This document shows positions 3,081 to 20,151 of a stretch of 20,151 bases of DNA, piece by piece. Position 1 is the first letter of the stretch. Each line of letters starts with the position of its first letter. The stretch lies in the IMG/VR virus record IMGVR_UViG_3300042887_000462, positions 1 through 20,151 of that record; one strand, 5' to 3'. The DNA comes from a virus. The notes beneath the pieces are model-generated. The model worked only from the letters and a program-made list of their open reading frames with translations. It was not told where the DNA came from and ran no database searches. Position numbers and translations under genes: made by a program.

Positions 3081-4298
3081 ATGAACTACGATTTTCCTGT
3101 TATATCGCATATAGATGATGTGTTACCGCACATCAAGGACTCTCCTGAGTTCATCCATGTTGTGAAGGATGGTTATCAGGTCATCAACTATGTTGTGGCT
3201 GGTCATGATACTTTTCCTGACGTTCATGTAACTGGTGATGTATACATCTCTGGGCAAAATGCAGGAGAGTATTCTGGTCAGTTGCACGGCGCTGCTGTTC
3301 GTCGTGAGTGTCGTGGTCTTGTGTTTGATATGGACGGCGATCTGATCGGTCGTCGGTATCACAAGTTCTTCAATGTGAACGAGCGTGATGAGACTTCTAT
3401 CGGTAAGATTGATTGGTCTCGCCCGCATGTGATCCTTGAGAAGCTTGACGGCTCTATGGTGTCTCCTTGTTTCGTCAACGGGCACCTTCGTTGGATGACC
3501 AAGATGGGTATCACTGACACTTCCATGGAAGCAGAAGCTTTCGTAGCCTCTCGCCCTGACTATACTGAACTTGCTGCTCACTATCTTGAACATGGATTCA
3601 CTCCTGTGTTTGAGTGGTGTTCAAACAAGAACCGTATTGTGCTGGACTATCCTGAAGATCGTCTTGTGCTGACTGCAATGCGTGAAATGAAGTTTGGTAG
3701 CTATATGCTGCATGATGCATTAGAGCGTATCGGTGAGCGTTACGGCATTCCTGTTGTGAAGGCATGGTCACACGAACAAATTCAAAAGATGGGTACTCTC
3801 ATCGGCATAGTTCGCGAAATGGAAGATGCTGAAGGTGTAGTTGTTCGGTTTGATGATGGTCACATGGTCAAGATCAAGTCGGACTGGTATGTTCGTATTC
3901 ACAAGATCAAGTCACTGCTTGGTCAGGAACGTGATGTTGTAGAACTGATCCTGAAGAACGAATTGGATGATATGCTTCCTGTCCTTCCGCGTGAAGATGT
4001 GGAAAAGATTGAGAAGTTCCAAGGTGTTCTTATGGAACAGATACGTCTTGCTGCATGGCATGTTTATCAGACTGTCAAGCAGAACCGTGAGACGATGGAT
4101 CGGAAGACGTTTGCAATCAACTATGCGCCGACTTTTGATCCTATGTTGCGCGGCCTTGTTTTCCAGTTTTGGGACAAGGAATGTGATGAACGCTTGACTT
4201 ATGAAGCGGTTGTTGCTATGATACTCAAGAACTGTGGATCTAATGCTTCCTATACAAAGGTCAAGGAAGCTTTTCTGAAGGATGCTCACTATGTCTAA
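3081..4298 (+). CDS. rnlA: T4 Rnl1-type RNA ligase
   Basis: The 405-residue protein has the nucleotidyltransferase motifs of ATP-dependent RNA ligase 1 in order: RECRGLVFDMDG (about 75-86), motif I EKLDGS with the adenylated Lys at about 121, FEWCS (motif III), EGVVVR (motif IV) and VKIKSDWY (motif V, almost identical to T4 Rnl1). T4 Rnl1 is 374 residues and seals 3'-OH/5'-phosphate RNA ends, for example in cleaved tRNA. The ATG at 3081 follows AAAGGAACAATAAA; an in-frame TTG at 3057 is less likely. It overlaps the 5'-kinase gene by 8 bases, and the 3'-phosphatase lies two small genes upstream, so the cluster can supply all three steps of the T4 repair route. Confidence 0.93.
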   Translation: MNYDFPVISHIDDVLPHIKDSPEFIHVVKDGYQVINYVVAGHDTFPDVHVTGDVYISGQNAGEYSGQLHGAAVRRECRGLVFDMDGDLIGRRYHKFFNVNERDETSIGKIDWSRPHVILEKLDGSMVSPCFVNGHLRWMTKMGITDTSMEAEAFVASRPDYTELAAHYLEHGFTPVFEWCSNKNRIVLDYPEDRLVLTAMREMKFGSYMLHDALERIGERYGIPVVKAWSHEQIQKMGTLIGIVREMEDAEGVVVRFDDGHMVKIKSDWYVRIHKIKSLLGQERDVVELILKNELDDMLPVLPREDVEKIEKFQGVLMEQIRLAAWHVYQTVKQNRETMDRKTFAINYAPTFDPMLRGLVFQFWDKECDERLTYEAVVAMILKNCGSNASYTKVKEAFLKDAHYV

Positions 4299-4770
4299 CC
4301 CTACGCTGTATATGCTTGTCGGAGTCCCTGGCTCCGGCAAGTCTACTTGGATCACAGAGAACTTTCCTGATCTGACTGGTTGTTATGTTGCGTCTACGGA
4401 TCGGTTGCTGGAAATCTATGCATCTATGCGCGGCGCAACTTACAATGATGTGTTTCAAGGTAACATTGATTATGCTAACAAGGCCATGATGACGCATGTT
4501 AAGGATGCTGTTATGTATGGTTATAACATCATCTGGGATCAGACCAATCTTACTCCGAAGTCCCGTGCTGCCAAGCTGGCTGCGGTTCCTAAGAACTATC
4601 GCAAGATTGGTATTTTCTTTCCTGTTCCTGAAACTGAAGAACTTTATCGTCGGCTTGACTCTCGTCCTGGCAAGACGATTCCAGAACATGCTGTCCAGCA
4701 AATGATAAACTGCCTGAAGCAGCCGACTGTTGCCGAAGGCTTTGATGAAATTCGTGCCGCATATGTCTAG
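4291..4770 (+). CDS. P-loop polynucleotide 5'-kinase (stand-alone half of T4 Pnkp)
   Basis: The 159-residue protein matches the N-terminal kinase domain of T4 Pnkp. It has the P-loop GVPGSGKST (11-19), STDRLL with the presumed general base D37, WDQTNLTP (82-89, aligning with T4 DTNLNP) and SRPGKTIP (Arg about 125 in the lid). The reaction would be transfer of the ATP gamma-phosphate to 5'-OH ends. It ends before any phosphatase domain; that activity is encoded at 2369. The ATG at 4291 is preferred over 4282 because GAAGGA sits about 8 bases upstream. It overlaps the ligase stop by 8 bases and the next gene likewise. Confidence 0.88.
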   Translation: MSNPTLYMLVGVPGSGKSTWITENFPDLTGCYVASTDRLLEIYASMRGATYNDVFQGNIDYANKAMMTHVKDAVMYGYNIIWDQTNLTPKSRAAKLAAVPKNYRKIGIFFPVPETEELYRRLDSRPGKTIPEHAVQQMINCLKQPTVAEGFDEIRAAYV

Positions 4771-5852: not shown

Positions 5853-6049
5853 TGACCGAAGTGACTAAGAGAGCTTTGTTCAAGACTGCATTGACAGTCG
5901 GTATTATTGCCATTCTATATGTGATAGGCACAGTGTGGCCTTCAATTGTTGGATATATGGCAATTGCTCTTGTTGTAAGTGTTTGTGTTGGAGTAATCTA
6001 TATGTTCTTTCACATGATTGAAGATACCAGAACTTGGAGAAGGCGATGA
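5852..6049 (+). CDS. Small two-helix membrane protein
   Basis: The 65-residue product has two hydrophobic helices (about 13-31 and 33-53) and a basic tail ending TRTWRRR, so both ends are probably cytoplasmic. It starts in a TAATG overlap with the phosphoesterase and its stop overlaps the glutaredoxin ATG. No known family is recognised. Holin-like topology alone is not enough to call lysis function, and no endolysin is nearby. Confidence 0.65.
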   Translation: MTEVTKRALFKTALTVGIIAILYVIGTVWPSIVGYMAIALVVSVCVGVIYMFFHMIEDTRTWRRR

Positions 6050-6297
6050 ACATCGTAATATATTCTAAGCCAAACTGCTCTTGGTGCGTTAAGGCTAAAG
6101 AACTCATGAACAAGTTGAATCTCAATTATGATGAAAAGGTACTTAATGTGGACTACACGCGGGATGAGTTGAAACAGCTTATGCCTGAAAATCTACCCTT
6201 GACAGTGCCGCAGATTTTCGTGTATAATAAGCGCATTGGTGGTTATGAAGACTTCGCGGAATGGTGTGATAATCACGGTTATGGCAATGGGCAGTGA
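6046..6297 (+). CDS. Glutaredoxin
   Basis: The 83-residue protein has the thioredoxin-fold glutaredoxin signature: beta strand MNIVIYSKP, active site CSWC (C11, C14), TVPQIF with the cis-proline (about 56-61), and GGYEDF near the end for glutathione contact. T4-like phages commonly encode such proteins (T4 NrdC) to reduce ribonucleotide reductase. No reductase gene lies in this window, so its partner may be elsewhere or host-derived. GGAGAAGGCG precedes the ATG, which overlaps the previous stop (ATGA). Confidence 0.92.
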   Translation: MNIVIYSKPNCSWCVKAKELMNKLNLNYDEKVLNVDYTRDELKQLMPENLPLTVPQIFVYNKRIGGYEDFAEWCDNHGYGNGQ

Positions 6298-17787: not shown

Positions 17788-18504
17788 ATGTCTAAGAAAC
17801 CAAAGAACAAGACTAACAGACAACAACCAGAAGCACAAAAGCAGGCTGCTCATTTTGAGTTAAGACACATCAAGCCGCTTACACCAAATCAGGAGAAAGC
17901 ATTCAATTCATACAAACAAGGCTATCATCTTATGCTTCATGGTTTTGCTGGAACAGGGAAAACATTCTGCGCTCTATATCTTGCTCTAAATGAAATCTTG
18001 ACAGACACATCAATATACAATAAAATAATCATTGTTCGCTCAGTTGTGCCTTCCAGAGATATGGGATTTCTACCTGGCTCTATGAAAGAGAAAGCTGCTG
18101 TGTATGAAGAACCATACCGTGAGATTTGTGATAGTCTCTTTGGTCGCGGTGATGGATATGATATACTGAAGATGAAAGGTATTGTCCAGTTTACAACCAC
18201 ATCATTCTTGCGTGGTATTACATTCAACAAGGCTATTGTAATTTTGGATGAAAGTCAAAATCTCACGTTTCAAGAAGCTGATACTGTGATGACTCGTATG
18301 GGTGATGAATCCCGTATCATTGTGTGTGGTGACTTCAGACAGACAGACTTGTTGAAGAGATATGAACAAGAAGGCATCACACAGTTGATGGCCATTACTA
18401 AGAGAATAAATACTTTCTCACATATAGATTTTCAGAAAGAAGACATTGTACGTTCTGGCCTTGTCAAATCGTACATCATACAGAAGGATGCAATGGGGCT
18501 ATGA
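17788..18504 (+). CDS. phoH: PhoH-like P-loop ATPase
   Basis: The 238-residue protein has a basic Gln/Lys-rich N-terminus (1-22), then the PhoH ATPase core: KPLTPNQEKAF (Q-motif-like), Walker A GFAGTGKT (52-59), VRSVVPSRDMGFLPGSMKEK (83-102), Walker B VILDESQN (151-158) and CGDFRQTDL (sensor region). The family is related to superfamily 1 helicases, and PhoH genes are common in phages of marine and soil bacteria. A helicase or nuclease-associated RNA function is suspected but not settled. AAGGGAG precedes the ATG at 17788. The frame runs upstream into the hairpin but that part is untranslated. Confidence 0.93.
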   Translation: MSKKPKNKTNRQQPEAQKQAAHFELRHIKPLTPNQEKAFNSYKQGYHLMLHGFAGTGKTFCALYLALNEILTDTSIYNKIIIVRSVVPSRDMGFLPGSMKEKAAVYEEPYREICDSLFGRGDGYDILKMKGIVQFTTTSFLRGITFNKAIVILDESQNLTFQEADTVMTRMGDESRIIVCGDFRQTDLLKRYEQEGITQLMAITKRINTFSHIDFQKEDIVRSGLVKSYIIQKDAMGL

Positions 18505-18917
18505 AGACATTCAGCGAATATTTGGCTGAAGCCAATATTACAAACAAAGAAGTGGCCGATATGGCAAATGCTAATGATGCATTACTTGATAAGACATATG
18601 GATATGGTAGAAGCAGGATCAGCCCAATTCGCGGCAAAAACAAAGCATTTGGGCAAGCATCAAACTTCAATAGTGCATTGCGCGGAATAATTGCCGCTAA
18701 GAGAAGCAAGGGTAATCTTCGTGCCACATCTGATGCTATTCATCGCGGCTGGGGTGAAACTGTCAAGACACATCCTGCTTCTGATTCAAAGAAGCAGGCA
18801 AATCGTGAAAAACTCAAAGGCACACCATACTTCAAACTTTCACGCGATGAACAAAGCAAAGATGATGTGATTGCCAAAAATATCATCAAGCGTGTAAAGA
18901 GAAAGAAGAAGAAATAA
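18501..18917 (+). CDS. Basic protein with T4-like capsid-targeting N-terminus (putative internal head protein)
   Basis: The 138-residue product opens MKTFSEYLAEA, very close to the capsid-targeting sequence MKTYQEFIAEA of T4 internal proteins. In T4 this tag directs proteins into the prohead and is cut off by the gp21 protease after an (L/I)-x-E; here LAE fits. The remainder is strongly basic (KAFGQASNFNSALRGIIAAK, later HPASDSKKQANREKLKG, and a final KRVKRKKKK), as expected of a protein that co-packages with DNA. It starts on the phoH stop (ATGA) and overlaps the next gene (TAATG). Packaging is inferred, not shown. Confidence 0.75.
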   Translation: MKTFSEYLAEANITNKEVADMANANDALLDKTYGYGRSRISPIRGKNKAFGQASNFNSALRGIIAAKRSKGNLRATSDAIHRGWGETVKTHPASDSKKQANREKLKGTPYFKLSRDEQSKDDVIAKNIIKRVKRKKKK

Positions 18918-19348
18918 TGCCAAGATTAGTTCTCATTACAGGTGGTTTTGATCCTGTTCACTCAGGCCACATAGAGTATATCAATGCGGCCAAAGAACTC
19001 GGAAACTATCTGTTTGTGGGACTGAACAGCGATGAATGGCTTACTCGCAAGAAGGGTAAGCCATTCATGCCCTGGCATGAAAGACATATGATCATATCAA
19101 ATCTGAGGGCAGTAGATGATTGTTTTGCGTTTGATGATAGTGATAGTTCGGCGTGCGATGCGATTCGTAAAGTCAGAGAAGAGAATCCAGAACAGACGAT
19201 TGTCTTTGCGAACGGAGGCGACAGAACTCAGGAGAACATACCAGAAATGAATTGTGGTGTGGATGATGTTGAGTTTGTCTTTGGTATTGGTGGTCAAGAA
19301 AAGAAGAACAGTTCATCTTGGATTCTAAAGAATTGGGAAAGCAAATGA
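18917..19348 (+). CDS. Cytidylyltransferase-like nucleotidyltransferase
   Basis: The 143-residue protein has the HxGH nucleotide-binding motif in GGFDPVHSGHIEYINAAKEL (9-28), VGLNSDEWLTRKKGKPF and a C-terminal SSSWIL corresponding to the (I/S)ST(S/T).(I/L) motif. It belongs to the glycerol-3-phosphate cytidylyltransferase/RfaE family, which activates phosphorylated sugars or polyols with CTP or ATP. Such genes occur in T4-like phages, where the substrate is unknown; envelope or capsule precursors or NAD metabolism are options. It lies between two genes with capsid-targeting-like leaders but lacks one itself. Confidence 0.85.
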   Translation: MPRLVLITGGFDPVHSGHIEYINAAKELGNYLFVGLNSDEWLTRKKGKPFMPWHERHMIISNLRAVDDCFAFDDSDSSACDAIRKVREENPEQTIVFANGGDRTQENIPEMNCGVDDVEFVFGIGGQEKKNSSSWILKNWESK

Positions 19349-19557
19349 AGAGCTTTAAGGAATATCTAACAGAAGAAAAAGCTTCAAAAGAAGAAGCCGT
19401 GTATCAAGACAATCCTAAGAATGAACAGAAGTGTATCAACTGTACCATGTGGCGTGAACCTAATAAGTGTACTGCGGTTGCTGGCGTGATTGATCCTAAT
19501 GGATGGTGCAAGTGGTACAAAGGTGGTGCTTATGGTAAGAGAGGTAATAAAGTGTGA
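19345..19557 (+). CDS. Capsid-targeted HiPIP-like iron-sulfur protein (putative)
   Basis: The 70-residue product opens MKSFKEYLTEEKA, again like the T4 capsid-targeting tag with an LTE protease site. The mature part has four cysteines (C30, C33, C42, C55) in KCINCTMWREPNKCTAVAGV, then IDPNGWCKWY. The last part fits the high-potential iron-sulfur protein pattern C-x(6)-I-x(3)-G-W-C-x(2)-Y, with CxxC upstream. A 4Fe-4S cluster is likely; simple zinc binding is the alternative. The ATG at 19345 overlaps the previous stop (ATGA); the frame's earlier codons belong to the previous gene. Confidence 0.72.
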   Translation: MKSFKEYLTEEKASKEEAVYQDNPKNEQKCINCTMWREPNKCTAVAGVIDPNGWCKWYKGGAYGKRGNKV

Positions 19558-20151
19558 AGAAGTTTAAATTCGTTGAAGGAATGCCAGAGTTAAAACAACT
19601 TGATGTGGACGAAAGCACAGGTAAAAGATTCTATATCACACCAAACGGCGTAAAGCTTCCTTCCGTTACAACTGTTCTCGGCCACTTCAAAAAGAAGTCT
19701 CTCATTGAATGGCGCAATAGAATTGGCAATGAAGAAGCTGATAAGGTAATGTTCCGCGCTTCCAATCGTGGCACTCGCTTTCATAACATGATGGAAGGTT
19801 ATCTTCGCAACGAGGATGACTTTCTCAATGGTGTAATGCCTGACATGAGACAGGCTTTCAACGATATGAAAGAAACGCTTGACTTGATTGACAATATACG
19901 TTATATTGAAAGTCCTCTCTACAGTGAGAAGCTTGGTGTTGCAGGAAGAACAGATGTCATCGCAGAGTTTGCTGGTGTTCCTTCTATCATAGACTTCAAG
20001 ACTTCGCGCAATGAAAAGAAAGTAGAATGGATTGAAAATTACTTTGAGCAAGGAACTGCGTATGCTCTGATGTATGAAGAATTGGTAAACGAACCTATGA
20101 ATCAAATCGTTATTCTCATATCGGTTGATTTTATGGAACATCCACAAGTTT
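19554..20151 (+). CDS. PD-(D/E)XK exonuclease, 5' part (runs off the window)
   Basis: At least 199 residues are encoded without a stop. The GTG start at 19554 overlaps the previous stop and follows AGAGG. The protein has PSVTTVLGHFKKKSLIEWRN (36-55), ASNRGTRFHNMMEGYL (69-84), GVAGRTDVIAEF with the metal-binding Asp, IIDFKTSR (the D-x-K motif) and a helix EQGTAYALMYEEL. This order is that of RecB/MGME1-like exonucleases encoded by T4-like phages, acting on DNA ends in recombination or repair. The C-terminus lies beyond the window. Confidence 0.85.
   Translation, partial: MKKFKFVEGMPELKQLDVDESTGKRFYITPNGVKLPSVTTVLGHFKKKSLIEWRNRIGNEEADKVMFRASNRGTRFHNMMEGYLRNEDDFLNGVMPDMRQAFNDMKETLDLIDNIRYIESPLYSEKLGVAGRTDVIAEFAGVPSIIDFKTSRNEKKVEWIENYFEQGTAYALMYEELVNEPMNQIVILISVDFMEHPQV

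Follow-up and report, generated by a model that had tools for sequence, protein, structure and literature searches.

Judging from its sequence, a small high-potential iron-sulfur protein (HiPIP) encoded by T4-like phages is probably carried by these viruses, and may be injected, as a ready-made redox protein. We found its gene in a viral fragment of 20,151 bases (IMG/VR record IMGVR_UViG_3300042887_000462), the whole of which is called the window here. Translation of positions 19345-19557 (+) gives MKSFKEYLTEEKASKEEAVYQDNPKNEQKCINCTMWREPNKCTAVAGVIDPNGWCKWYKGGAYGKRGNKV, followed by the stop. The features of the gene and of its immediate surroundings are collected in Table 1. The family to which this protein belongs is undescribed: no paper on phage HiPIPs was found in a literature search that had preprints and most subscription journals outside its coverage.

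Table 1. Features of the HiPIP gene and of the adjoining genes in the window.
Feature	Position	Strand	Details and basis
Lysine/arginine-rich 138-aa ORF with leader MKTFSEYLAE/A (cut after E)	18501..18917	+	Sequence
Cytidylyltransferase-like / heptose-1-P adenylyltransferase-like protein	18917..19348	+	PF01467 8.5e-14; phrog_7878 2.4e-28
Phage HiPIP-family protein, 70 aa	19345..19557	+	ATG at 19345, stop TGA at 19555-19557; PF01355 and PioC match
Leader MKSFKEYLTE of capsid-targeting-like type; prohead-protease cut predicted after E10 (LTE/E)	19345..19374	+	Likeness to T4 IPII/IPIII
HiPIP domain, residues 11-60, predicted [4Fe-4S] site	19375..19524	+	Gapless against PioC over 50-51 residues
Tyr20, counterpart of the conserved cluster-side HiPIP tyrosine	19402..19404	+	Invariant; opposite the PioC Tyr in the alignment
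Cys30, predicted cluster ligand 1	19432..19434	+	Invariant; PioC Cys22 (PMC7462912)
Cys33, predicted cluster ligand 2	19441..19443	+	Invariant; PioC Cys25
Cys42, predicted cluster ligand 3	19468..19470	+	Invariant; PioC Cys34
Cys55 of GWC, predicted cluster ligand 4	19507..19509	+	Invariant; PioC Cys47; Trp at i-1, aromatic at i+2/i+3
PD-(D/E)XK exonuclease, running past the window end	19554..20151	+	phrog_298 4e-64; PF12705; context

An initial annotation, made by reading the sequence, had proposed a HiPIP-type protein on the strength of two patterns, C-x2-C-x8-C-x12-C and C-x(6)-I-x(3)-G-W-C-x(2)-Y. Both are exact in the open reading frame (C30-x2-C33-x8-C42-x12-C55, and C42-x6-I49-x3-G53-W54-C55-x2-Y58), and the assignment was borne out by profile and alignment searches. 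The protein scored 24.7 bits with the Pfam HIPIP model PF01355, above the curated cut-off of 22. Its best solved relative in a single-sequence phmmer search was PioC (E=1.6e-10), and a profile of the phage family, which aligned end to end with solved HiPIPs, matched PioC at 3.5e-14 and the HiPIP 3h31 at 4.1e-5, with 1isu and 1hpi as weak matches. Local alignment to PioC gave z=22 relative to full shuffles and z=13 relative to those in which the cysteines were kept fixed; a chance cysteine pattern was rejected on these grounds. The NCBIfam Iro model NF041615 also matched over the HiPIP domain (E 2.5e-11), but the score of 43.7 bits is below the curated cut-off of 100 and places the phage protein outside that equivalog. 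PHROGs searches returned no family for it. Taken together, these results make it virtually certain that the window protein is a homologue of HiPIPs.

Characterized HiPIPs have a tryptophan right before the fourth cysteine and an aromatic residue right after it, and the cluster of PioC is held by Cys22, Cys25, Cys34 and Cys47 (PMC7462912). The same marks are present in the phage protein, with W54 before C55, W57/Y58 after it, and the conserved tyrosine ahead. AlphaFold gave no confident model (mean pLDDT of 53 without an alignment and 43 with 33 homologues), so the HiPIP fold was inferred from sequence alone. These low values would fit a reading in which the likeness to HiPIPs is degenerate and the four cysteines bind zinc or nothing. 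We regard that as very unlikely, since the spacing is identical to that of PioC, the Tyr, Trp and Gly are conserved with it, the profile match to PioC is strong, and the protein is under strong purifying selection (see below). A zinc-ribbon reading in particular is less likely because the cluster-side aromatic residues are conserved. On this evidence the phage HiPIP very probably binds a 4Fe-4S cluster.

The family is large. At least 122 IMG/VR contigs carry members, and a second search added further contigs, while the one isolate with a member is Synechococcus phage S-SRM01, whose protein (QPX48026) bears the annotation 'hypothetical protein'. In 35 non-redundant phage sequences there is no variation at K12, K15, Y20, P39, G47, G53 and W54 or at any of the four cysteines. 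Pairwise dN was 0.075-0.16 against a dS of about 1.4 or more, which is partly saturated, and dN/dS was below 0.1 where dS could be estimated; low dN against high dS indicates strong selection on the protein. In a tree built from few alignment columns, all phage HiPIPs except one formed a single group (support 94/92). The exception (L002:4788-5186, LR756508.1) is a divergent HiPIP domain located C-terminally in an ORF of ~130 aa from a 484-kb phage.

HiPIPs are known from textbooks as exported electron carriers. All 17 bacterial relatives that we compared, from alpha- and gammaproteobacteria and including PioC, have an exported-type N-terminus, and at least 16 of them carry a twin-arginine motif when read by eye, with one (L124) ambiguous. 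Among bacterial sequences in the genome contigs searched, the best match to the phage family was a Methylobacter HiPIP with a twin-arginine signal (L121:5213-5491; 53% identity). By contrast, N-termini of the phage HiPIPs, likewise read by eye, showed no RR motif with a hydrophobic stretch. The absence of a Tat signal is a difference in localisation and does not imply a difference in fold. In bacteria, HiPIPs acquire the cluster while still in the cytoplasm, and the Tat pathway then exports them in folded form (PMC7462912). Lack of export would thus not in itself preclude loading of the phage form.

In place of an export signal the phage proteins begin with a short leader resembling those of the T4 internal head proteins. 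For T4 IPIII, the ten N-terminal residues are enough for packaging, and gp21 cleaves after (L/I)xE (PMC9026906). The T4 leaders, read from NC_000866 with a slash marking the cut, are MKTYQEFIAE/A for both IPII and IPIII, and MKTFKEF...TITE/A for IPI. The window protein has such an N-terminal leader of about ten residues ending in (L/I)xE, and homologues carry MKSYQEFIAE/E (L085), MKSFQEFLSE/E, MRFIEFISE/A or MKIQDLFE/A; in the S-SRM01 protein the predicted leader is MKSFQEFLFE or MKSFQEFLFEE. An [LIVF]xE site precedes the HiPIP domain in 62 of 63 distinct phage homologues; what the initial annotation had simply called a leader is thus real and conserved. The whole leader pattern is rare, being present in 3 of the 276 open frames of S-SRM01 (4 in a position scan), and the remaining leader-bearing proteins of that phage are QPX48173 (conserved family phrog_1742), QPX48223 (a cytidyltransferase) and QPX48235. 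In the 484-kb phage, the leader motif is absent directly before the divergent HiPIP domain, which counts against the explanation favoured here.

Whether the head machinery needed for such a leader accompanies the HiPIP was judged from related HiPIP records, as it is not visible within the 20-kb window. The T4-type prohead protease (PF03420) was found in 8 of 13 records, and gp23 (PF07068) in the same 8; the other 5, all partial contigs, have neither. Protease and gp23 thus occur together in 8/8 records with head genes found, S-SRM01 and the 484-kb phage being among them. The gp23 N-termini that we read, those of S-SRM01 (...RSFLSE/ASPT) and of a 330-kb phage (...RKYLSE/SATA), contain LSE sites that we infer to be equivalent to the T4 gp23 cut position.

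Fusions of the HiPIP to other domains have potential cleavage sites as well. An [LIV]xE triplet lies directly C-terminal of the HiPIP in all seven distinct fusions, a count to be read against the shortness of such protease motifs, a background of about 32% of random 25-aa windows for [LIVM]xE-type triplets and the partial interrelatedness of the fusions. The sites are IDE/D, VAE/S, VDE/S, VDE/D, VNE/A, LAE/S and LTE/A, those with V-x-E being an extension of the L/I-x-E rule of T4. In L005 a leader, MKTFKQVLNE/V, is followed by another domain, then by VVAE/E, and then by the HiPIP. The partner domain of three HiPIP proteins (L017, L018 and L138) occurs in 42 distinct contexts, 3 of them with the HiPIP. 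Among the 39 contexts without it, about 30 begin with the same type of leader, as counted by eye. These patterns suggest that T4-like internal head proteins may be shuffled as interchangeable modules separated by the protease.

Recurrent modules were also noticed beyond the HiPIP itself. A domain of ~150 aa, QWKNDEPAGYVKQL...DYVYSYVDLKVPH... (L017:1656-2108, L138, L179-L244), is present in 66 viral contigs, where it forms part of several different fusions and in most cases follows a capsid-targeting-like leader; the L138 sequence had no match in Pfam. A search for the partner domain in isolate phages with a self-made composite of related domains, a weak query, gave no match. The C-terminal module GRIVKGVNTTVDVGPxEIKxQAAKFGNxVDKDGxPPxL recurs in L014, L017, L018, L019, L184 and L194, and is common to otherwise unlike leader-bearing proteins, the leader of L194 being MRLREIFE. 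In L020:5986-7206 a single ORF combines the HiPIP with a HAD/polynucleotide-kinase-like phosphatase (phrog_415) and a further domain.

The head destination proposed in the initial annotation is supported by the T4-type leader, by the co-occurrence of protease and gp23, by the [LIV]xE junctions and by the loss of the Tat signal. As far as can be told from sequence, it is likely that the phage HiPIP is packaged in the head and, with a little less assurance, that its leader is clipped by the prohead protease.

We propose that T4-like phages acquired a small PioC/Iro-type HiPIP, which came to bear a capsid-targeting leader in place of the twin-arginine signal. The protein would fold and receive its [4Fe-4S] cluster in the cytoplasm of the infected cell. 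MKSFKEYLTE would then bind the prohead core, as the first ten residues of IPIII do, and a gp21-type protease would cut after the glutamate of LxE, leaving a basic HiPIP of ~6.8 kDa with the DNA. With the genome, it would exit into the next cell. Its likeliest job, we guess, is that of a one-electron donor or acceptor, the cluster being assumed to stay reduced in the cell and to yield one electron to strong oxidants. It might quench oxidants and DNA radicals in the head and during entry, or might contact a redox partner of the host just after entry. The initial annotation had named DNA protection, redox sensing and interference with host respiration or defence as conceivable functions. We lean towards this explanation as a whole, in which a capsid leader has taken the place of the Tat signal of a HiPIP that is then packaged, clipped and ejected. 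Action through electron transfer, taken by itself, falls just short of an even chance. That a working high-potential electron carrier resides in T4-like heads, delivered with the DNA and exchanged as a cassette among protease-separated modules, is put forward more tentatively still.

The surroundings of the gene bear on what the protein might do. Start and stop codons overlap on both sides of the HiPIP gene (ATGA at 19345-19348, GTGA at 19554-19557), which is consistent with a single operon containing the cytidylyltransferase-like (5') and exonuclease (3') genes. The former, which overlaps the HiPIP start, is regarded as context outside the proposed mechanism. Comparison of neighbourhoods revealed no redox partner gene conserved beside the HiPIP; neighbours vary among phages and are kept only within clades, apart from genes for PhoH and an exonuclease, which form a pair close to three members. 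That members occur in phages with differing neighbour genes points, weakly, to a role in the particle rather than in a host pathway.

A packaged HiPIP might have no redox job at all and serve as a compact knob, pinned by metal, at the N-terminal end of internal head proteins, with a role in folding, in density or in getting through the tail tube. Its exchange among otherwise unrelated internal-protein modules, its small size and basic charge (pI about 9), and the lack of a conserved redox partner gene would all agree with this. However, the cluster-side Tyr, the GW-C and the aromatic residue at +2/+3 are kept beyond the ligands themselves, for which a knob has no obvious need, and we consider such a role unlikely. 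Equally improbable in our estimate is an ejected effector that binds a component of the host, be it an electron carrier, a complex of respiration or photosynthesis, or a protein of defence, and blocks or drains it, in the manner in which T4 IPI blocks a restriction enzyme. T4 internal proteins with such a leader are ejected, IPI being an inhibitor that acts against restriction (PMC9026906), and bacterial HiPIPs dock on reaction centres (PMC10304953). The known partners of HiPIPs are periplasmic, though, whereas IPI of T4 is cytoplasmic, no defence-system model matched the HiPIP protein, and the variety of neighbour genes among the phages speaks against a single host-specific target.

It is also conceivable that the protein is an ordinary auxiliary metabolic gene product, active in the infected cytoplasm, whose leader resembles those of T4 without causing packaging. 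S-SRM01 does possess photosynthesis and redox genes, among them petF, psbA and hli (PMC8557907). Yet almost all members bear a T4-type leader, of which cytoplasmic gene products have no need, and the leader is also found on fusions whose partner domains bear it elsewhere; this alternative therefore appears quite unlikely.

The closest solved relative, PioC, is a periplasmic HiPIP of Rhodopseudomonas palustris TIE-1 (PDB 6xyv, 7a4l, 7a58). The phage protein resembles it in its gapless alignment over the whole domain, its cysteine spacing, its small size and its basic charge. PioC, however, is exported by the Tat pathway and has PioAB and the reaction centre as partners, whereas the phage form has a capsid-targeting-like leader. 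The Iro family (Feoxidase_Iro, NF041615) likewise shares the HiPIP domain, but the phage protein, besides scoring below its cut-off, is without an export signal. With T4 IPII and IPIII it has in common a ten-residue leader, and with the T4 internal proteins generally an (L/I)xE cut site and a small basic mature protein, both predicted here; a gp21-type protease is encoded in genomes of the same HiPIP phage family. IPI, IPII and IPIII differ in having no cysteine metal site and in their mature sequences, which are unrelated to the phage HiPIP. Some phage tail-tip and hub proteins, such as lambda gpL and the RcGTA hub, are known to hold an iron-sulfur cluster with four cysteines (PMC7296036). 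Those are parts of the tail tip or baseplate, whereas the phage HiPIP is a candidate head-internal protein of the HiPIP type; our literature search found no Fe-S cluster in head-internal phage proteins. What is new is the combination, as the HiPIP fold and the targeting device are each known and their pairing is unreported.

If the proposal is true, this would be, to our knowledge, the first redox carrier packaged in a phage head. Replacement of an export signal by a capsid leader across a large phage family would imply a redox protein, and iron, inside heads, and would offer a candidate head-located source in the debate over iron in phage particles. The paper on S-SRM01 (PMC8557907) mentions neither iron nor mass spectrometry of virions, and this cultured phage can be used to ask whether heads hold an Fe-S protein and what its role in entry would be.

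Several other genes of the window deserve mention. The lysine/arginine-rich ORF at 18501-18917, which had no match in Pfam and PHROG searches, is by its sequence a second candidate internal head protein. A further redox protein, with a glutaredoxin/thioredoxin domain (phrog_22), is encoded at 6049-6297 (+). A T4-type RNA ligase gene (phrog_562) at 3081-4298 (+) adjoins that of a P-loop kinase/ATPase (phrog_2071) at 4282-4770 (+), and the two likely form an RNA-repair pair.
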